This document shows positions 37,048 to 46,720 of a stretch of DNA of 47,966 bases, piece after piece; the first letter of the stretch is position 1, and every line of letters starts with the position of its first letter. Origin of the DNA: Syntrophales bacterium (lineage in GTDB: Bacteria; Desulfobacterota; Syntrophia; Syntrophales; UBA8958); NCBI GenBank assembly GCA_026416455.1, contig JAOAFE010000005.1, positions 91,878 to 139,843 of the forward strand, read 5' to 3'. The position numbers were made by a program, and so were the translations under genes. The notes beneath the pieces are model-generated. The model searched no databases. It was given only the letters and a program-made list of their open reading frames with translations, and was not told where the DNA came from.

Positions 37048-37722
37048 TCAAAGTAAAAGAAGGCCTCCGGTTCTGTCAAGGAGGTTTGTGAGTTCCGCTG
37101 CCGTATCGAAGATGAAGTCAGCTCCGGCCAGCTCTAAATCTTCTCTTCGGCTTGCGCCGGAGAGGACACCAATTGCCATGAGTCCCTCTCGTTTACCCAT
37201 CGCCATGTCCATGGGATGGTCGCCCACCATGGCCGCCTCGTTCGGTCTTACCCCAATGGTAGCGAGTGCCATTTTTAAATGGTTGGGGTTTGGTTTTACC
37301 GGCCTTACATGATCCCGGGTCAGGATAGTGTCCACTAACAAATTTAGGGAAGGAAAGGAGAGCATAACTGCGGCGTAACAGTTCCTCGTTACGACAGCCG
37401 TTTTTAAGCCTCGCACTTTCAGATATGTTAGCATTTCCGGAACGCCAGGGAGGGGTTCTGCTGAGCTAGCCGAAGAAATTTCGATGCTTTCTATTATATG
37501 GAAGGCTTCTTCCTTGAATTGTCGGGCCACCTCCTCGTTTCGGTTAGATAGGATTTCGACCCCTCCTTCAACCATCTCCAAGATGTATTTACCCTGTAGA
37601 TTTTCGGTCGGTATGCCGTATGCCTCGATGCACTTATTTACTTCTTTCTTCATCCGATCGAAATCGACCTTTAACGTGGCAAGAGTACCATCGAAGTCGA
37701 AAATGATACCTGATAATTTCAT
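37048..37722 (-). CDS. HAD-family phosphatase (phosphoglycolate-phosphatase-like)
   Basis: A 224-residue HAD hydrolase. Motif I is IIFDFDGTLATL with nucleophile D9 and acid D11; motif II is VVTRNCY; motif III/IV is VKPNPNHLKMA...AAMVGDHPMDMAMG. A helical cap lies between motifs I and II, so it is a subclass I phosphatase acting on a small phosphorylated metabolite, unidentified. The ATG overlaps the Nudix stop by 4 bp, indicating coupling, and the phosphomutase follows. Confidence 0.9.
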   Translation of the reverse strand: MKLSGIIFDFDGTLATLKVDFDRMKKEVNKCIEAYGIPTENLQGKYILEMVEGGVEILSNRNEEVARQFKEEAFHIIESIEISSASSAEPLPGVPEMLTYLKVRGLKTAVVTRNCYAAVMLSFPSLNLLVDTILTRDHVRPVKPNPNHLKMALATIGVRPNEAAMVGDHPMDMAMGKREGLMAIGVLSGASRREDLELAGADFIFDTAAELTNLLDRTGGLLLL

Positions 37723-38525
37723 AGGTATCGATTGCCTTTCATATATTCTTGGGTCAAGACGCGGTGAAAGATAGCATTTTCTGGAATGGCTGGCAGACTA
37801 AATCCGAAAACCACCTGAAGGAACTTCATGATGATGTTAAAGGTGGCTCCCCAGAGGATTTCTTTTTGTCCCTCTTCATCGAGGATCACGAAGGCGGGAA
37901 GTTCTAGTCGGTATGCCTGATCTCCTTGGCTGGTTACAAGAAAATGGGTGTAGTTGCTGGTTTCGAAAAAGGTCGTAAGAGGTACTTTCAATATTTTTTC
38001 CACCTCTCGACTGGGTTTGGCCTTCCATGGATGTGTAGCCCATCCCACAACAGGGAAAATGGTTCTTTGAAATGTATACAGAGAGTACGGGGGGAGAGGA
38101 CCTATGAACTTGATGTTCCATGGGCGAAGACCGATTTCCTCCCATGTTTCCCTAAGGGCGTTGGCCAGAAAGAGGCTAATGAGGGTGAAGGTGTCTGCCC
38201 CTCTTTTTTTCGCCCATTGCCTGGCCGCAACGTCCATAACGGGGAAGATGCCACATCTGATAAAGAAGGCCAGCATTTTATCCAACCGCGGGTTTAGCAT
38301 TCCTCCAGGACAACTTATGTCTCCACCTTGGGTGACCCGGCGCGACCTCTTAATTAGGTGAACGTATACCTGGTTGTGGTCATCCTGTGAGCCGCTAAAA
38401 ATAAGAAGTACACCGGCAGCTAATCGATTACCCCTGATGGCCTGCCATGTCTCAAGATAGTTCAGCTCGGCAAATTCTCCCAGCTTTCGGATCACCAGCT
38501 CTTGGAAATGTTCCCGATTGGTCAC
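37719..38525 (-). CDS. Nudix hydrolase with long insertion in the Nudix box
   Basis: A 268-residue protein. GGDISCPGGMLNP is the start of a CoA-diphosphatase-like Nudix box and ALRETWEEIGLRP its end, carrying the metal-binding REx2EE. Between them lie about 43 residues (R-L-D-K... to ...F-L-A-N) where the canonical box has about 8-10. Similar insertions are known in the peroxisomal NUDT19 (RP2p) CoA diphosphatases, so hydrolysis of CoA or acyl-CoA derivatives is a reasonable guess, relevant in a beta-oxidising cell. Start is GTG at 38525, overlapping the stop of the YheT gene (GTGA). Function not proven. Confidence 0.85.
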   Translation of the reverse strand: MTNREHFQELVIRKLGEFAELNYLETWQAIRGNRLAAGVLLIFSGSQDDHNQVYVHLIKRSRRVTQGGDISCPGGMLNPRLDKMLAFFIRCGIFPVMDVAARQWAKKRGADTFTLISLFLANALRETWEEIGLRPWNIKFIGPLPPYSLYTFQRTIFPVVGWATHPWKAKPSREVEKILKVPLTTFFETSNYTHFLVTSQGDQAYRLELPAFVILDEEGQKEILWGATFNIIMKFLQVVFGFSLPAIPENAIFHRVLTQEYMKGNRYL

Positions 38526-39517
38526 GGCGCGTTATTACCCGATTGCTTGATGGTGTCTACTATCTTTTCTTCGTACCACGAAGTAAGGGAAAAATCTCGG
38601 AAAAAACCACAATGACCACCGTATCGAAAACGATAAAGCGTCAGGTGAGAAAGTTGGGGCACGTGGTCGAAATCGTCGATGGTTACGACGGGATCATCTT
38701 CTGCCACGATAACCGTCGTCGGTATGGAAATTTTCAGAAATTGATCATGGGTAAGAGTATAGAGTCGAAAATACTCTTCATAGTTGGAGAATTCCGGAAA
38801 GTAGGGCATGATGGCCTCCGTGAGAGCGAGACAGTTTTTGTGGTTTAGAAGGGGACGAAAATCGTAGATATGGGGAAAAAGTTTCTGTTTTTTCCTCAGG
38901 GAACGCTTCCATTTTTTCATGAAATAATGACGATAAATAGCCGGTCCTGCGTCCAGACGCAAGGTTGATTTAAGCGGGTCGAGAGGCGGGCTAATGGCAA
39001 AAACATGGGTAAGTCTAGGAATACGGTTCCCCATCTCGGTATAACGCATGGCAATGCGCAGGGCAAAATTTCCCCCCAGAGAAAATCCAACTAAGAAAAA
39101 TGGTTTTCCCTCTTGTTCTTCTGCAACTTTCGTGATTGCTTCCTCCACTTCTTCGATCAACGCACCGTGGAAGAGGCCCTGATTTAAATGATGACTTTCT
39201 CCGTGGTCTCGAAAGTTAAGACGAAATACTTCAAAACCATTCTGTGATAGGTAGTTCCCGAGGGAAAGCATATATGCGGAATTTACGCTACCTTCCCAGC
39301 CGTGTAGAAGAAGTACCAATCCATGCGCGCGGTGGCTACTTATGGGCGGGGTGTAGTAACCGAGCAGCCTGGCTCCCTGGGACGTATCAATAATCCTCTG
39401 TACCGAGGCCTTTTGGAAAGACACACTACCACGGGCGCGCCAATGGGAACTCGCTAAGATGGTTTGCACATGGGGATTGCGAAGCAACAGAGAGGGTAGA
39501 AAATGATCTTCTTCCAT
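38522..39517 (-). CDS. YheT-family alpha/beta hydrolase
   Basis: A 331-residue alpha/beta hydrolase beginning EEDHFLPSLLLRNPHVQTI, the conserved start of the YheT/ABHD1-3 family. Oxyanion motif LLLHGWEGSVNSAY, nucleophile elbow GFSLGG (S146), acid near DDPVV, and C-terminal His in RYGGHCGFF. Probably an esterase or lipase/phospholipase-like enzyme; the substrate is unknown. It lies between the F-type ligase-like gene and the Nudix gene with short spacing, in the same operon. Confidence 0.92.
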   Translation of the reverse strand: MEEDHFLPSLLLRNPHVQTILASSHWRARGSVSFQKASVQRIIDTSQGARLLGYYTPPISSHRAHGLVLLLHGWEGSVNSAYMLSLGNYLSQNGFEVFRLNFRDHGESHHLNQGLFHGALIEEVEEAITKVAEEQEGKPFFLVGFSLGGNFALRIAMRYTEMGNRIPRLTHVFAISPPLDPLKSTLRLDAGPAIYRHYFMKKWKRSLRKKQKLFPHIYDFRPLLNHKNCLALTEAIMPYFPEFSNYEEYFRLYTLTHDQFLKISIPTTVIVAEDDPVVTIDDFDHVPQLSHLTLYRFRYGGHCGFFRDFSLTSWYEEKIVDTIKQSGNNAP

Positions 39518-39526
39518 CTCTATCTC

Positions 39527-40591
39527 TTACAGGGGCCCCCGCTTTTCCTCATGGGCCTTCAATGCGCAATCGATGATGCGCGATATGAGGTCTGTCTGGG
39601 TCAATCCGTGGGCGGCAGCTTGATGAAAAAGCACCGTTGAAGGTGTCATGCCCGGCAGGGTGTTTACCTCCAGTACGACGACTCGCCCGTCTTTCCGGAC
39701 AAACATATCGATCCGAGCATAACCGCGTACACCAAGAGTCGAAAAAGTCTTAACCGCCGTGGCCTTAATTCTTTCTATCGTTTCTTCTGGAAGACGGGCG
39801 GGGGTCTTGTTTTCTCCTTTACCGTACAGAAATTTATCTTCCAGCGAGAGTATGTCTTCGGTCGGAATAGTTTCCGATGGAGTGAGGGCGAATGGAATTT
39901 CGTCCTCCAGGACACCGCATGTGACCTCTACTCCCTCGATAAATTCTTCCACCAGGGCGGCCGGATCCCAGTTCCACACCTCTTCCAGGGCATCGGGGAT
40001 GCCGTTTATACTCACCACCTTTTTTACCGCCGTGGAACAGCCTTCCCTTATCGGTTTGACGACACAGGGGAATCCGATCTCGGACGTGATCATGGATTCT
40101 GTGTGCATCCGGTTGGATTCCCATTCCTTCCTTTCAACTAAGAGGCTACGTGGCACATCTATTCCATTGGCAGACAACAATCGCCGGGTCATGTACTTGT
40201 TCATCCCCAATGCAGATGCAAGTACACCTGAACCCGTGTAGGGGACATTTAGAAGTTCAAGAAGACCTTGTATGCATCCGTCTTCACCGTATTTTCCGTG
40301 CAAACCGAGAAAGACCAAATCAACTTGAGTCTTCAATGCCTCGTATTTTATAAGCTTGGCCTCCGTTTCCAAATCCTCTTCGATGTCACTCGTGCTGTTT
40401 CGCATAAGTAGTTTAATGGGAATTTCCCACAGGCGAGCTCGTTTGTCCATAAAGATCGGAATCGGCTCAAACCGATTCCGATCCATTTTGCTGTAGATGT
40501 TACGTCCACTTTCTAGGGACACCTCTTTCTCTGAAGAGATGCCCCCCATGATGATACCTACTTTTAGTTTCTTGTTGTTTACCTCCGCCAA
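39527..40591 (-). CDS. D-Ala-D-Ala ligase family protein, Phe-type (copy 1)
   Basis: A 354-residue ATP-grasp ligase. Conserved Ddl features: SSEKEVSL with the first-substrate-binding E23, HGKYGEDGCIQGLLE, RID (D295) and the metal ligands E308 and N310 in LEVNTLPGMTPS. Two deviations: the ATP-side loop reads EGCSTAV instead of EGSSVGV, and the position of E. coli DdlB Tyr216 (EAKY) is EDKF, F254. The Phe form is found in D-Ala-D-Lac ligases of Leuconostoc and Lactobacillus, so depsipeptide formation is a possibility. Start is TTG at 40591, 10-12 nt after GAGG, a little weak. Paralogue at 41464; no vanH or vanX homologue lies in the window. Confidence 0.88.
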   Translation of the reverse strand: MAEVNNKKLKVGIIMGGISSEKEVSLESGRNIYSKMDRNRFEPIPIFMDKRARLWEIPIKLLMRNSTSDIEEDLETEAKLIKYEALKTQVDLVFLGLHGKYGEDGCIQGLLELLNVPYTGSGVLASALGMNKYMTRRLLSANGIDVPRSLLVERKEWESNRMHTESMITSEIGFPCVVKPIREGCSTAVKKVVSINGIPDALEEVWNWDPAALVEEFIEGVEVTCGVLEDEIPFALTPSETIPTEDILSLEDKFLYGKGENKTPARLPEETIERIKATAVKTFSTLGVRGYARIDMFVRKDGRVVVLEVNTLPGMTPSTVLFHQAAAHGLTQTDLISRIIDCALKAHEEKRGPL

Positions 40592-40611
40592 TTTGAAGAA
40601 ACACCTCTCTT

Positions 40612-41385
40612 TTAGAATCCCACACTGAGGCCAATGTAGGGACCTGCCAAAAAGAAATCGTTGGTCACGTCTTGTACTTTGTCCATTTTAATTTTCATAA
40701 CCCGATAGCCCGCGTGAATGTCCAAAAAGGGAAAGGGAGTAACGGATACATCAGCCATGGCATCGAGATAGACATTCCCTGAATAAGCCATACCTGAGAC
40801 CTTGGCCCGCGCTTCTAAAAGATTGGCCAGAAGTCCTAAATGAGCGCCTAAACCTACCATGGGAACGATGGTTCCGTAATTTTCCTTCGTCTTGCCTAAT
40901 ACGGGAGCAGAAAGGCTTGATTCCCCATCAATATATTTGAGTTTTCCCAAAACTCCCACAGCGAATCCAGCCAATATTGGCTTAAATTTAAAAACGTCGT
41001 ACTGATATTCTAAATCGAAAACCCGCAGGGTGAGGTCGGCATCTACCTTCGTGCCTACGGGATACGTTTTCCCCGCGAAATTTACGTTGAAGGAGAGGGT
41101 GTTATCTTTGGAATGGCCTATCTGCGTGTACATGAGGCTTAAGTGATGTTTCCCGATGCCGCCATAGGCCTCCAGGGAAGGATAGCCTCTATTTCCCACA
41201 TCCATGAGGTCTTTGGCACTGAATTCTGTGCCCTTTAAATTATCTTTGTCTATTTTTATATCTCCCCGGAATGAAGGAAACCAGTAGTAACCCCGAACTC
41301 CCAATTCGAAGGCGTGTGCAAGGGAAGCACTAAGTAAAAATGCTATAATTACGCCCGCATAGACAACTTTTCTCTGTGTCATCAT
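40612..41385 (-). CDS. outer-membrane beta-barrel protein
   Basis: A 257-residue exported protein: signal peptide (VVYAGVIIAFLLSASLAHA, cleavage near residue 26) followed by alternating hydrophobic strands (FELGVRGYYWF, HLSLMYTQIGH, LTLRVFDLEYQYD, FKPILAGFAVGVLG, MVGLGAHLGLL, PFLDIHAGYRVMKI) and a C-terminal phenylalanine (GLSVGF), the signal for BAM insertion. An eight-stranded barrel is likely. The AAGGAG site suits either of two adjacent ATGs, 41385 or 41382. A promoter at 41417-41445 lies upstream. It sits between the two Ddl paralogues. No named family is recognised. Confidence 0.85.
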   Translation of the reverse strand: MMTQRKVVYAGVIIAFLLSASLAHAFELGVRGYYWFPSFRGDIKIDKDNLKGTEFSAKDLMDVGNRGYPSLEAYGGIGKHHLSLMYTQIGHSKDNTLSFNVNFAGKTYPVGTKVDADLTLRVFDLEYQYDVFKFKPILAGFAVGVLGKLKYIDGESSLSAPVLGKTKENYGTIVPMVGLGAHLGLLANLLEARAKVSGMAYSGNVYLDAMADVSVTPFPFLDIHAGYRVMKIKMDKVQDVTNDFFLAGPYIGLSVGF

Positions 41386-41416
41386 TTTTCTCCTTTCTCG
41401 AATTTTTGAGCACTTG

Positions 41417-41445
41417 TTTATAAAGATTTTACGACCTTTTGTAAA
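41417..41445 (-). promoter_or_regulatory. internal promoter of the outer-membrane protein gene
   Basis: Minus strand TTTACA (41440-41445), 17 nt, TATAAA (41417-41422), in the longest gap (78 nt) of this operon. Confidence 0.6.
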
Positions 41446-41463
41446 GAGAGATTAAAGCTCGAT

Positions 41464-42522
41464 TCATACTAAAGGCCCTTGTTTGTTTCGATGTATTTTC
41501 AAAGCGTTTTGGATAAGGCGGGAGATGATCATAGAAGGGAGCATTCCGGCACAGGCGGCTTGTTCAAAAAAGAAGGAAGATGGCGCCATTCCGGAGGATG
41601 AGTTTGGATCGGTAATACAGATGCGGCCATCCGACAGGTAGAATCCGTCTATTCGTCCGTACGATCTGAATCCTAAAGCTTTGAAAGCGGCGATGGCCTC
41701 TTTTTTAATTTTTTCCACCATCTCCGGCGGTATGTTTTTGGGAGGAGTAAATTTACGGCATCGTCCGGGCATATACTTATCGTCGTAAGTGTAGTACTCA
41801 CTTTGTGGATGAATTTCCGTAAGGCCCAGGGCAAAAACTTCATCGTCTTCTTCTAAGATAATACAGGAAAATTCAATGCCTTCTAAAAATTCTTCTACCA
41901 GTACGGCCGTATCCCATTTTAGGGCGGCGTTAATTTTTTCTTCTATTTCTCCTTCCATCTTTACTTTCCCCACCCCCACACTCGATCCTTCCCGTATTGG
42001 TTTAACAAAGAAGGGAAAAGAAAATTTCTCGATGAGTGAGCGCTTGATTTCTTCTTGGTTTTTTTTCCACTCTTTTTCATGAACAATTTCGCTTTTCGGT
42101 ACGTCCAAACCAAAAGAACGGAGGATGAGTTGTTGGACATGTTTATCCATTCCCAGGGCAGAAGCAAGCACACCTGGGCCCGTGTATGGGATGTCGAGAA
42201 TCTCTAAAAGTCCTTGGATACAGCCATCGTCTCCGTACTTACCGTGCAGGGAAATAAAGGCAAAGTCTATCAATTCCGTTAGATCTTCGTAAGAGATGCG
42301 TTTGGCCTTCGTCGGAAGGTGCTCCGAGATATCAATCGTTGTATTTTGAGAGATGAGGCTCCATGGTATAATCCAAAGTGCCCCGGAGGCATCCATAAAA
42401 ATGGGTACTCCTTCATATAGTTCCGGGTCTAAATTGTCGTATACATTTCGGCCGCTGTTTAAAGACACCTCTTTTTCCGAGGACATGCCTCCCAAGATGA
42501 TCCCTACTCTTAATTTTGACAT
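41464..42522 (-). CDS. D-Ala-D-Ala ligase family protein, altered metal motif (copy 2)
   Basis: A 352-residue ATP-grasp ligase paralogous to 39527-40591. The canonical ATP loop EGSSVGV and Tyr250 (DDKY, the DdlB Tyr216 position) are present, as is the HGKYGDDGCIQGLLE motif. However, the metal-binding EVNTxPGMT is replaced by ITDPNSSSGMA, so D305 and N307 stand where Glu and Asn are expected and PGM has become SGM. Activity could be altered or lost. I chose the ATG at 42522 (GGGAGG 8 nt upstream) over the TTG at 42525. The gene lies 15 nt after the alanine racemase fusion; the promoter for the outer-membrane protein follows it. Confidence 0.87.
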   Translation of the reverse strand: MSKLRVGIILGGMSSEKEVSLNSGRNVYDNLDPELYEGVPIFMDASGALWIIPWSLISQNTTIDISEHLPTKAKRISYEDLTELIDFAFISLHGKYGDDGCIQGLLEILDIPYTGPGVLASALGMDKHVQQLILRSFGLDVPKSEIVHEKEWKKNQEEIKRSLIEKFSFPFFVKPIREGSSVGVGKVKMEGEIEEKINAALKWDTAVLVEEFLEGIEFSCIILEEDDEVFALGLTEIHPQSEYYTYDDKYMPGRCRKFTPPKNIPPEMVEKIKKEAIAAFKALGFRSYGRIDGFYLSDGRICITDPNSSSGMAPSSFFFEQAACAGMLPSMIISRLIQNALKIHRNKQGPLV

Positions 42523-42537
42523 CAAAAAATCCTCCCA

Positions 42538-44496
42538 TTAAAAAGTATCCCAGATAAAAGCAACGCCACTGACGGGAAAAATCCATCGGTCGTCTCCCAC
42601 TTTGATCAGGATAGATTTTCCTTTCTGTTTTATTACCTCAGGTTTTAATTGCTTGCCCGCAAAGAAAAAAACTTCTCTCACATTTCGCAGACGGGCTTGC
42701 TCGTAATTGAATTCAATGTTAAGCCCCCGGGTCGGGTAAACGAGGTAGACGGTAAATAAGTTGTTGCTCTTCGATTTTCTGGTAAAGATTTCAATGGTAA
42801 ATTTTACCCTTTGGTCTCGCTTCTCTTTCAATTTTTCCGTTCCGCAGACGACTTCGTAACCTCGAGACGTGATGCCCGCTTTCAACACAGGAACTGGTTC
42901 TCCATCAATGGTTACCCTGTTTACCTGAAAGTCTTTTTCTAAATTTATCCGGTCGTCTCGATTTAAAACCCACCTGTATTCACAGCGAGGGTCTTCAAAA
43001 AAGGAAGAAAGTTGTTCTTCGTCAAAGGCACATCCGATGATGAATTCGTGGTTCCTTAAAATTTTCGTATACTCAATGTGCGTGGTCATACGTAGGGCAT
43101 CAGGTCGGTAGCCGAGGGAAATAATTTCTTCGTCTGCGAATTCTGACACATCGATCCGATAGAAAAAATCTTCCCTTAATTCGAGAGGTCTATTTTCTTT
43201 ACCGAAGAGGGTTTCGAAAATTTCGTAGTATATGGCATCTCCCACTTCTGTATCTCTTGCTCGGGCCTGAAAGCAATGGCGGATGATGTTACCGATGCGG
43301 GCCAGAGATTTTTCTTCTTCAGGAATGAAGATTCTTCTGAGGCGCGGCAGGATGGAATCGGGTTTTCCTGATTGAAGGAAGATGCGGGGCGCCCTCTTAC
43401 CTAAGGTACATAAAATTTCGTATGCGTGTGTACCGGCTCGCTCGGCGATATCGGTGGCCGTGATGGTTTCATTTCCCTGGCGGCCGAGAATGACCACTTC
43501 GTCACCTATCTCACAACCAGGTATATCGGTTACATCAACGGTGCACATATCCATCGAGACGCGGCCAATCACAGGGGCTTTCTTCCCCCGCACGAGCACT
43601 TCGCCTTGATTGGATAATACGACGCCGTAACCGTCGCCGTATCCGATGGGAATAGTAGCAATTTTTGTCGGTCGGCAAGTGGTATAAGTGCGGTTGTATC
43701 CGATACTGTAGCCGGGTGGAAACTCCTTCAGTAAAACGATGCGAGTCTTGAACGACATGACGGGTACAATAGAGGCCCGCTCCATCGTCTCTCGAGCGGG
43801 ATAGATGCCGTAAGACATAAGCCCCGGTCGCACCATATCGAGGTCGAAAGAGCGGAAGTTGAGGATCCCTCCGCTATTAGAGATGTGCCTTAAAGGAATA
43901 GAAAGGCCCTTTGCTGCTAGTTTATCCAGAAGGGTTTTGAACTTGGCCCATTGCAATCTGTTGTACTCATCTTCTTTTATTTCAGCCGAAGCCAGGTGTG
44001 TGAAGATGCCCTCGATTACTATATTAGATAATGAGGCAATTCGTTCTATTATCTTTACGGCTTCGTCGCTCAAAATGCCTCCCCGACCCATACCGGTATC
44101 CACCTCGACATGAACAGGCAGAATAACCTGCGCTCTCTGGCACTGACGATCCAGCTCTTGGGCAAAGGCCATATCTGAAACGGACGGTATGAGCCGGTAT
44201 TTTATTATGTCCTGTATTTCTCCTATGGGAGATGGGCTGAGGATGACGATCGGTTGCTCGATGCCGGTTACCCTAAGCTGAATCCCTTCGTCAGCATTGG
44301 CCACACCCAGGTAGGAGGCACCGTTTTGCAAGGCCACATTAGCGATTTCGATGGCGCCATGACCGTATGCATCGGCCTTGACGACCTGCATGATTTTTGT
44401 CTTGGTCCCAATCAGACGCCTAATTTCGGCCAAGTTTTTTTTAAAATTATCCAGGTCTACTTCTACCCAGCTTCTGTAAGCCTGCTCTTCTGTCAA
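42538..44496 (-). CDS. alr: alanine racemase fused to a large C-terminal domain
   Basis: A 652-residue protein. Residues 1-373 are a complete PLP alanine racemase: K40 in VVKADAYGHG, R223 in VRPGLMSYG, Y267 in YSIGYNRTY, and a normal end at LGKRAPRIF. Residues about 374-652 form an unrecognised domain rich in predicted beta strands (GYEVVCGTEKLK, LFTVYLVYPTRGLNIEF, REVFFFAGKQLKPEV, WIFPVSGVAFIWDTF). The start is TTG at 44496 (MTEEQAYRSW), with GAGGA 8 nt upstream. Racemase plus two Ddl paralogues suggests D-alanine supply and ligation in peptidoglycan or another D-amino-acid polymer. The tail could sense, localise or modify; no function is assigned. Confidence 0.92.
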   Translation of the reverse strand: MTEEQAYRSWVEVDLDNFKKNLAEIRRLIGTKTKIMQVVKADAYGHGAIEIANVALQNGASYLGVANADEGIQLRVTGIEQPIVILSPSPIGEIQDIIKYRLIPSVSDMAFAQELDRQCQRAQVILPVHVEVDTGMGRGGILSDEAVKIIERIASLSNIVIEGIFTHLASAEIKEDEYNRLQWAKFKTLLDKLAAKGLSIPLRHISNSGGILNFRSFDLDMVRPGLMSYGIYPARETMERASIVPVMSFKTRIVLLKEFPPGYSIGYNRTYTTCRPTKIATIPIGYGDGYGVVLSNQGEVLVRGKKAPVIGRVSMDMCTVDVTDIPGCEIGDEVVILGRQGNETITATDIAERAGTHAYEILCTLGKRAPRIFLQSGKPDSILPRLRRIFIPEEEKSLARIGNIIRHCFQARARDTEVGDAIYYEIFETLFGKENRPLELREDFFYRIDVSEFADEEIISLGYRPDALRMTTHIEYTKILRNHEFIIGCAFDEEQLSSFFEDPRCEYRWVLNRDDRINLEKDFQVNRVTIDGEPVPVLKAGITSRGYEVVCGTEKLKEKRDQRVKFTIEIFTRKSKSNNLFTVYLVYPTRGLNIEFNYEQARLRNVREVFFFAGKQLKPEVIKQKGKSILIKVGDDRWIFPVSGVAFIWDTF

Positions 44497-44517: not shown

Positions 44518-46662
44518 TTACTTGCGCGTCATGGTGAAGACGCCGTCCCAATCAGGACCGGGGGGATTTTCTTTCAATTCCGCCGCCCGCTTGAGATACA
44601 TAGTAGAAGGTGGATCGCCAGGACGAATGTCGAGGGTCTTTTGGAATAAAGCAATGGCCTCGTCAAATTTTTGCGCCCGATATAAATTGAGGGCATCTTC
44701 GAAGGTTTTTATGTAGGCCTCGTGAAGGGGGGCGTCCTTTTTCTCCCCCAAGAGTTCATAGATTTTAACAGGTTGTTTCTTCCCCTTGACCCTTACGGCA
44801 TCGATTTCTCTTGCCAGGAGGACATCTTTGATGCGCTCATAAGTACTTTCGCTGATAATGATGTGGGTTCCATATTCCTTATTCAAGCCTTCTAAACGGG
44901 AGGCGAGATTTACGTTATCTCCCATCACCGTATAATCGAAGCGCATATCAGACCCCATGTTTCCCACCACCATATCTCCGCTATTGATGCCTATGCCGAT
45001 ATCGATTTTCGGTTTCCCCTCAGCGTCCCATTTTTTCTGTAAATTTTGTAGCTCTTCCATCATTTCTAGGGCTGTGCGACAGGCCCGGAGGGCGTGGTCT
45101 GGCTGATCGATGGGGGCACCGAATACGGCCATGATGGCATCCCCGATGTACTTGTCCAGAAGACCATCGTATTTAAAAACTTTCTTCGTCATGGCCGTTA
45201 AATATTCATTGAGTAAGCTCACCAACTCCTCCGGTGAGAGCTGCTCCGAAATGGTGGTAAATCCTCTGATGTCGGAGAACATGACCGACAGATCTTTCTT
45301 TTCTCCCCCCAGCTTCAACTTGGAAGGATCGGTCAGGATCTCGTTTATCACCGTCGGCGTGAGGTAATATTGAAATGCATTTTTTATCTTCTTTTTTTCC
45401 TTTTCCTCCGTCATGTACCGGTAGATGTTGATGAAGAGAAAGAGTGTCGCCATGGCAAGTAATGGGTAAGTGAGATTGAGCCAGATTTTGAATTTGGCAA
45501 AGGCAATGAAGTTAAAGGCAAGAAAGGAAAGAAGAAGAGCAAGTGTTGCTATCAATCCCGGTATGGCCTTGGTGCGAGGTACAATTATCCCTACCAGGAA
45601 ACCAAAAACGATGATGGCCAGGGCATCGAGAAAGGTAGTCCAGGATGAGTGTTCAAGGAAATTTTTGTGTAGGATATTATCGATGATGTTGGCGTGAATC
45701 TCGACCCCGGGGTATATGTTACTGTAGGGTGTTACCCGTAGGTCGTAAATGCCGGTCGCTGTAGCCCCGACAATAACAATTCTATCCTTGAGGAGCTCGG
45801 GCTGAATTTTTTTATTAATGACGTCCACAGCTGAATAGTGAGGAAAGGTTCTTGCGGGACCTAGATAATTAATAAGTAAACGACCTGCTTCATCAGTGGG
45901 AATTCGAGTATCTTCAAGTATAATTTCCTCCACTCCAATTTCGCTCAGCTTAAGTCTAATTGGTGGATGGTCGAGATACTGTAAAATAAGGGCCACAGAA
46001 AGGGGAAAATAAAAGTTATCTTTGCATTTTATGACGAGGGGGGATTTTCTTATGACTCCATCACTGTCGGGAAATGCGTTAAAGAATCCGCTGTTGACTG
46101 CCCCTTGGGCGATTAATTCTATACTCGGTACGGCAGCATAAGCTTGAAATAAGATGTCTTCCGCCGGTGGTGATTTAACTTGTACTATAGGATACTGCGA
46201 GTTACCGATGAGGTCGAGGGCTGTGTTAATGTCTTTTTCCTTTAAATGTCCCATATCTCGCTTGCTGGTGTGAAAGAAATAACCTAAAGTCACATTATCT
46301 GCTCGTTCGATGGACTGAGAAAGCACCCTGTCCGCTTCGCCTTCCGGCTCGGAAAAGACGATATCGAAGCCGACGGCCTTAACTCCATAGCTTTTAAGAC
46401 TATCAACGAGGAGGGCAATGTGCTTTCTTGACCACGGCCAGCGACCAAGTTCGCTGAGACTCTTTTCGTCAATTGCCACTATGGCTACTTCCGGGCCGGG
46501 CTTAATCGTCCCCCGATAGACCATCCTGAGATCGAGACTTTTAAGTTCGATGAACCTCAGAAATGGCGTATCGACAAAGAAGGCGATGAGGGTAAGGAAA
46601 ACGATTAGTACGGTTATCTTGGCTGGTGAGACAGTAGTTAGGCCCTTTAAAATTTTTCTCAA
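44518..46662 (-). CDS. CHASE2-domain adenylate cyclase with C-terminal TPR
   Basis: About 714 residues. An N-terminal membrane helix leads to an extracytoplasmic CHASE2 sensor (LDLRMVYRG, AIVAIDEKSLSELGRWPWSR, GAVNSGFFNAFPDSDGVIR), then three membrane helices, then a class III cyclase domain. The metal-binding Asp pair is present (VMFSDIRGFT and DKYIGDAIMAVFG), the base-specifying Lys precedes YIGD and NVNLASR supplies the transition-state Asn/Arg, all consistent with adenylate cyclase. A TPR-like stretch ends the protein. I place the start at TTG 46662 because GGGAGG lies 6 nt ahead; the ATG at 46692 lacks a ribosome-binding site. It heads the leftward envelope operon. Confidence 0.92.
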   Translation of the reverse strand: MRKILKGLTTVSPAKITVLIVFLTLIAFFVDTPFLRFIELKSLDLRMVYRGTIKPGPEVAIVAIDEKSLSELGRWPWSRKHIALLVDSLKSYGVKAVGFDIVFSEPEGEADRVLSQSIERADNVTLGYFFHTSKRDMGHLKEKDINTALDLIGNSQYPIVQVKSPPAEDILFQAYAAVPSIELIAQGAVNSGFFNAFPDSDGVIRKSPLVIKCKDNFYFPLSVALILQYLDHPPIRLKLSEIGVEEIILEDTRIPTDEAGRLLINYLGPARTFPHYSAVDVINKKIQPELLKDRIVIVGATATGIYDLRVTPYSNIYPGVEIHANIIDNILHKNFLEHSSWTTFLDALAIIVFGFLVGIIVPRTKAIPGLIATLALLLSFLAFNFIAFAKFKIWLNLTYPLLAMATLFLFINIYRYMTEEKEKKKIKNAFQYYLTPTVINEILTDPSKLKLGGEKKDLSVMFSDIRGFTTISEQLSPEELVSLLNEYLTAMTKKVFKYDGLLDKYIGDAIMAVFGAPIDQPDHALRACRTALEMMEELQNLQKKWDAEGKPKIDIGIGINSGDMVVGNMGSDMRFDYTVMGDNVNLASRLEGLNKEYGTHIIISESTYERIKDVLLAREIDAVRVKGKKQPVKIYELLGEKKDAPLHEAYIKTFEDALNLYRAQKFDEAIALFQKTLDIRPGDPPSTMYLKRAAELKENPPGPDWDGVFTMTRK

Positions 46663-46690
46663 TTTTTGCCTCCCGCAAGTGAATAAAAAC

Positions 46691-46720
46691 ATCCTATGAA
46701 ATTGAATCCCCCTTTGTCAA
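46691..46720 (-). promoter_or_regulatory. candidate promoter of the cyclase operon
   Basis: Minus strand TTGACA (46715-46720), 18 nt, TAGGAT (46691-46696). The -35 box is inside the left arm of the 15-bp inverted repeat. Confidence 0.45.

Follow-up and report, generated by a model that had tools for sequence, protein, structure and literature searches.

The D-Ala-D-Ala ligase Ddl carries out an essential step that usually depends on a single gene. D-cycloserine acts on this enzyme, and vancomycin on its product. In lactic acid bacteria, Phe or Tyr at the position of residue 216 of Escherichia coli DdlB decides between depsipeptide and dipeptide activity (PMC5996685), and DdlB substituted at both Tyr216 and Ser150 shows weak D-Ala-D-Lac activity (PMC7691350). 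Glu270 (Glu275 in BpDdl) and Lys144 (Lys148) are conserved in 98–100% of Ddls (PMC6899670). Here we describe two Ddl paralogues, copies A and B, encoded in one cluster of a Syntrophales genome (2.1 Mb, 96% complete). This pair is most likely the cell's Ddl for peptidoglycan and not a side modification system.

Gene order and products of the cluster

The window, by which we mean the whole 47,966-nucleotide stretch that was analysed, contains a leftward cluster in the order CHASE2-cyclase, alr, Ddl B, barrel, Ddl A, with gaps of approximately 12–80 bases between the genes (Table 1). Both Ddl products have the PF01820 and PF07478 domains and score above the TIGR01205 cut-off of 245.65 bits, copy A with 280.9 bits and copy B with 270.3 bits. 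The barrel protein scores 71.3 bits with TIGR04219, where the cut-off is 105. Some relatives (L085, L086) have two tandem CHASE2-cyclase-like matches upstream of alr. Directly downstream of copy A in the window, on the same strand, are overlapping genes for an alpha/beta-hydrolase (37719–38525) and a CoA-pyrophosphatase-like NUDIX protein (38522–39517).

The alanine racemase (Alr) is 652 amino acids long and matches TIGR00492 with 377.2 bits (cut-off 168); its catalytic Lys and Tyr are invariant. As the earlier note on this DNA had it, the enzyme carries a C-terminal extension of about 279 residues. The Alr domain itself reaches to about residue 374, and the part behind it has no Pfam match. 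This extension is conserved across Syntrophales, including relatives with a canonical ddl, and is therefore independent of the Ddl pair. Its predicted model (pLDDT 78.5) has structural matches at Z 9–11 in the N-terminal beta domain of M1 aminopeptidases, OST1 and a TFIID subunit, and the extension is too short to include the M1 zinc domain. That it serves in docking or in binding peptides would be a guess.

Table 1. Window positions of the cluster genes and of the codons for the substituted or compared Ddl residues
Feature	Position	Strand	Basis or remark
CHASE2-adenylate/guanylate cyclase	44518..46692	(-)	conserved gene upstream in cluster
Alr catalytic part, residues 1-374	43375..44496	(-)	TIGR00492, conserved Lys40 and Tyr267
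Alr C-terminal extension, residues 375-652	42538..43374	(-)	helical stretch and beta domain, predicted model
Ddl copy B, 353 aa	41464..42525	(-)	TIGR01205 match and DdlB alignment
Copy B codon Tyr251	41773-41775		
Copy B codon Asp306	41608-41610		
Copy B codon Ser311	41593-41595		
Outer-membrane beta-barrel-like protein, 257 aa	40612..41385	(-)	signal-peptide-like start; TIGR04219 below cut-off
Ddl copy A, 354 aa	39527..40591	(-)	TIGR01205 match and DdlB alignment
Copy A codon Cys185	40037-40039		
Copy A codon Phe254	39830-39832		
Copy A codon Thr319	39635-39637		

Active-site residues and origin of the two copies

Active-site residues are numbered according to E. coli DdlB (sequence from MG1655), which was aligned to both copies. 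All residues named in the earlier note are real and fall at the columns it gave, and the changes are family-wide and not peculiar to this genome. In copy A, Phe254 lies at the DdlB Tyr216 column (Y216F) as claimed. The alignment also revealed two changes in the hydrogen-bonding tetrad (E15, S150, Y216, S281) beyond those listed there: Cys185 corresponds to S150C and Thr319 to S281T. Copy A has thus changed three of these four residues and kept only E15; position 281 is mostly Thr in A proteins. The metal motif of copy A is intact, as had been noted, with Asp257, Glu270 and Asn272 all kept, and the ATP residues are intact at every position examined. In three divergent Chloroflexota pairs (L168–L171, from G445, G477 and G504), SSPSST replaces MTPST in copy A.

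Copy B deviates elsewhere. Its Asp306 and Ser311, in the motif DPNSSSGM, correspond to E270D and P275S, and the tetrad is complete, with Tyr251 at the Tyr216 column as previously described. R255 and G276 are also kept, and the Syntrophales proteins retain all other substrate and ATP residues that were tested. The "altered metal motif" attributed to this copy holds for one ligand, Glu270, and for the neighbouring Pro275; it is not a loss of all ligands, since Asp257 and Asn272 are kept. Some ATP-grasp enzymes can use Asp as a metal ligand. The ATP lysine, Lys144, is Leu in B proteins of the three divergent Chloroflexota genomes mentioned above, a branch consisting of these three genomes only, and the changes in their pairs suggest further specialisation of both copies. 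The predicted structure of copy B is a complete Ddl fold (Z 33.9).

We compared A and B protein sets drawn from Syntrophales and Chloroflexota with 49 canonical Ddls, namely those of Syntrophales and Chloroflexota, plasmid-borne proteins (including VanA and a VanI-like ligase) and E. coli DdlB. All 43 A proteins have C150 and F216, and all 38 B proteins have D270 and S275. Among the canonical Ddls, S150, E270, P275 and K144 are each found in 49/49 and Y216 in 47/49. These data bear out the idea that two paralogues of one cluster deviate in complementary ways, and conservation of this extent rules out chance or genome-specific mutation. The fixed differences between A and B are confined to eight columns. 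Six of these (150, 216, 217, 223, 270 and 275) belong to the active site or omega loop, which indicates that the copies diverged where the chemistry happens. By the residue list of PMC6899670, the core of the dimer interface (DdlB G70, G74, V88, A92 and D96) is kept in both A and B, which makes A-B pairing plausible.

The A clade (support 97/90), the B clade (98/88) and the two together (100/99) are all supported with canonical Ddls outside, which argues for a single duplication before the spread over two phyla. The tree thus places A and B as sister groups that arose in one duplication event. Their evolutionary rates are equal (A 0.40, B 0.39). A mirror-tree analysis gave correlations of 0.48 for A with Alr and 0.61 for B with Alr, and the co-variation of A with B did not exceed what Alr accounts for (partial r 0.23, standard error 0.13). 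The equal rates, 63–75% identity across the order and an intact predicted fold rule out that copy B is a decaying pseudogene.

Distribution and proposed role of the pair

Of 108 Syntrophales genomes with a completeness of 90% or more, 61 have both A and B; the other 47 have exactly one Ddl N-domain match (43 genomes) or none (4). There are exactly two such matches in 57 of the 61 pair genomes, and the four exceptions are at or near contig ends or split across contigs. Apparent single copies of the pair are likewise located at or near contig ends. No additional full-length Ddl was found in the pair genomes, where G401 has only a weak third match (28 bits, in a 332-aa frame). A third, canonical ddl in the window genome, a possibility the earlier note had raised, was not found, and these two are its only Ddl N-domains; its other PF07478 matches are on different contigs and lack the PF01820 N-domain. 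In one class of Chloroflexota, 11 of 199 genomes have the pair, and the number of Ddl N-domains is exactly two in every one of these. In the phylum to which Syntrophales belong, the pair was not found in a sample of 297 genomes from outside the order, and plasmid and phage collections yielded only distant Ddls (<60% identity).

Within genus g22, G044 has the order alr-B-barrel-A, and G028, G055 and G383 carry a canonical ddl immediately after the fused alr. The pair carrier G044 is presumably Syntrophus aciditrophicus SB, a cultured organism. Syntrophales with a canonical ddl (L067–L075, L178–L181) have either a DdlA-like type (families f14 and f20) or a DdlB-like type (f9, f10 and f19), which together with the pair makes three Ddl solutions within one order.

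Linkage of the two genes is not needed for both to be retained. In G013 they are approximately 379 kb apart, and unlinked copies also occur in G032, G022, G402 and others. In some genomes copy B is found with alr, and A lies at another site, either accompanied by the barrel gene or not. This arrangement and the complete metal and ATP residues of copy A would fit an account in which copy A suffices as an ordinary D-Ala-D-Ala ligase, its Phe/Cys pocket being tolerated, and copy B has an unrelated ATP-grasp function as a separate enzyme or regulator, the two being co-inherited because both are useful. We regard this as unlikely, given the obligate co-retention of the copies, their joint replacement of canonical ddl and the presence in B of all tested D-Ala-binding residues.

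Of 51 A loci, 18 have the barrel gene as the immediate upstream neighbour of A. It is also directly upstream of A in L062, L066, L076 and L150, loci that lack alr and B in the vicinity or are cut off by the end of the contig; since the barrel is still beside A in loci with no B in sight (L062, L066 and L076), it goes with A and not with the pair. The barrel is an optional and not a defining part of the system. The alr fusion is not a defining part either, as it also accompanies canonical ddl.

In the window genome a cluster of four Mur ligase genes is on another contig, and in several Chloroflexota the pair adjoins a MurF-Alr fusion gene. Because the pair replaces canonical ddl as the sole full-length Ddl, Mur ligases are present and there are MurF-Alr neighbours, the product of the pair most likely goes to MurF. 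The earlier note had instead read the cluster as a dedicated D-amino-acid or D-hydroxyacid envelope modification system apart from peptidoglycan synthesis, an idea prompted by the unusual residues and, in the window genome, by the barrel gene within the cluster. Such a system would leave pair genomes with no other full-length Ddl to feed MurF, and neither the MurF-Alr neighbours in Chloroflexota nor the absence of the barrel from most A loci agrees with it. We consider it very improbable.

The reading we prefer, with about an even chance of being right, is that A and B are an obligate two-gene replacement of Ddl in which A is catalytic and B is a partner with an altered metal site, delivering a dipeptide to MurF. 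The Alr of the same cluster would supply D-Ala, the two paralogues together would make a D-Ala-D-X dipeptide and MurF would add this to the peptidoglycan stem. Catalysis would fall to copy A, whose ATP/Mg site is complete and whose acceptor pocket is remodelled (C150, F216, T281). Copy B would fold and bind ligands as its partner but have little or no ligase activity (E270D, P275S), and an A-B heteromer would replace the usual homodimer. The observations behind this reading are the invariant residues, the single duplication, the co-occurrence of the copies, the lack of any other full-length Ddl and the gene context; the physical heteromer, the low activity of B and the identity of the product are what we infer.

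Copy B may nevertheless be an active enzyme, since A and B evolve at equal rates and its other tested substrate and ATP residues are kept in Syntrophales. Because of this, and because the mirror-tree analysis lends no specific support to an A-B interaction, a serious rival is that the copies are two independent active ligases. Here B would make D-Ala-D-Ala and A a depsipeptide or other D-Ala-D-X (for example D-Ala-D-Lac), and MurF would take both to give mixed or switchable stem ends. The Phe of copy A at the residue that separates dipeptide from depsipeptide activity (PMC5996685), its Cys at Ser150 (PMC7691350), the retention of S150, Y216, R255, G276 and S281 in B and the equal constraint on both copies all fit this proposal. 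However, neither copy has convincingly been lost alone in two phyla, which is unexpected for separable activities, and E270D and P275S are in all B proteins, with K144L in one branch. Moreover, a VanX-type dipeptidase is lacking from the window genome and from most pair genomes, and there is no vanH-like gene beside the pair in the window. On balance two separate ligases seem possible but less probable than the obligate two-gene replacement.

With regard to the product, F216 and C150 of copy A are the same two positions that were substituted together in DdlB (PMC7691350), and residues of this kind would be compatible with D-Ala-D-Lac. We tentatively raise the possibility, which we would not bet on, that Gram-negative syntrophs and some Chloroflexota have an obligate heteromeric Ddl that requires a pseudo-ligase subunit at the essential D-Ala-D-Ala step, possibly with a stem end other than D-Ala-D-Ala (for example D-Ala-D-Lac) in the normal precursor of peptidoglycan. 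A direct prediction on Syntrophales peptidoglycan follows from the pair. The lineage-wide swap to two obligate paralogues amounts to a natural experiment on splitting the specificity and metal chemistry of Ddl between proteins.

Comparison with known systems

The pair belongs to the same superfamily as VanA, VanB and VanG and has approximately 33% identity to VanA. By contrast, VanA lacks both Tyr and Phe at the column of Tyr216, and the pair has no vanH or vanX neighbours. The scores are well below the Van NCBIfam cut-offs (NF000206, A 198.2 and B 183.1 against 550; NF012217 for VanA, A 168 against 775). No match to PF01427, the vanX dipeptidase family, was found in the window genome (G000) or among the cluster neighbours. 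The missing VanX and the scores below the Van cut-offs rule out a vancomycin-type resistance cluster.

Copy A shares with the Phe-type D-Ala-D-Lac ligases of Leuconostoc and Lactobacillus (LmDdl2, PDB 1ehi) the Phe at the DdlB Tyr216 position. Unlike LmDdl2, it also has Cys150 and mostly Thr281, and it has an obligate second paralogue. The structure 1ehi is only a distant match to the pair, and the comparison with the Leuconostoc enzyme rests on papers. The pair also resembles homodimer-to-heterodimer transitions after duplication (e.g. PMC11066126), in which duplicates of a dimeric enzyme are kept together and their active sites diverge; in contrast to those cases, the physical interaction here is a proposal. 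We found no report on this pair among open-licence papers.

The pair is also close to DdlA and DdlB (TIGR01205, ATP-grasp): it has their fold and length, nearly all of their residues for substrate, ATP and metal, and likewise Alr and MurF as partners. It differs from them in being two obligate sister paralogues, each with fixed changes at otherwise invariant active-site positions. The pair thus appears to be a novel variant of Ddl, for which the comparative evidence is strong and the mechanism is a proposal.
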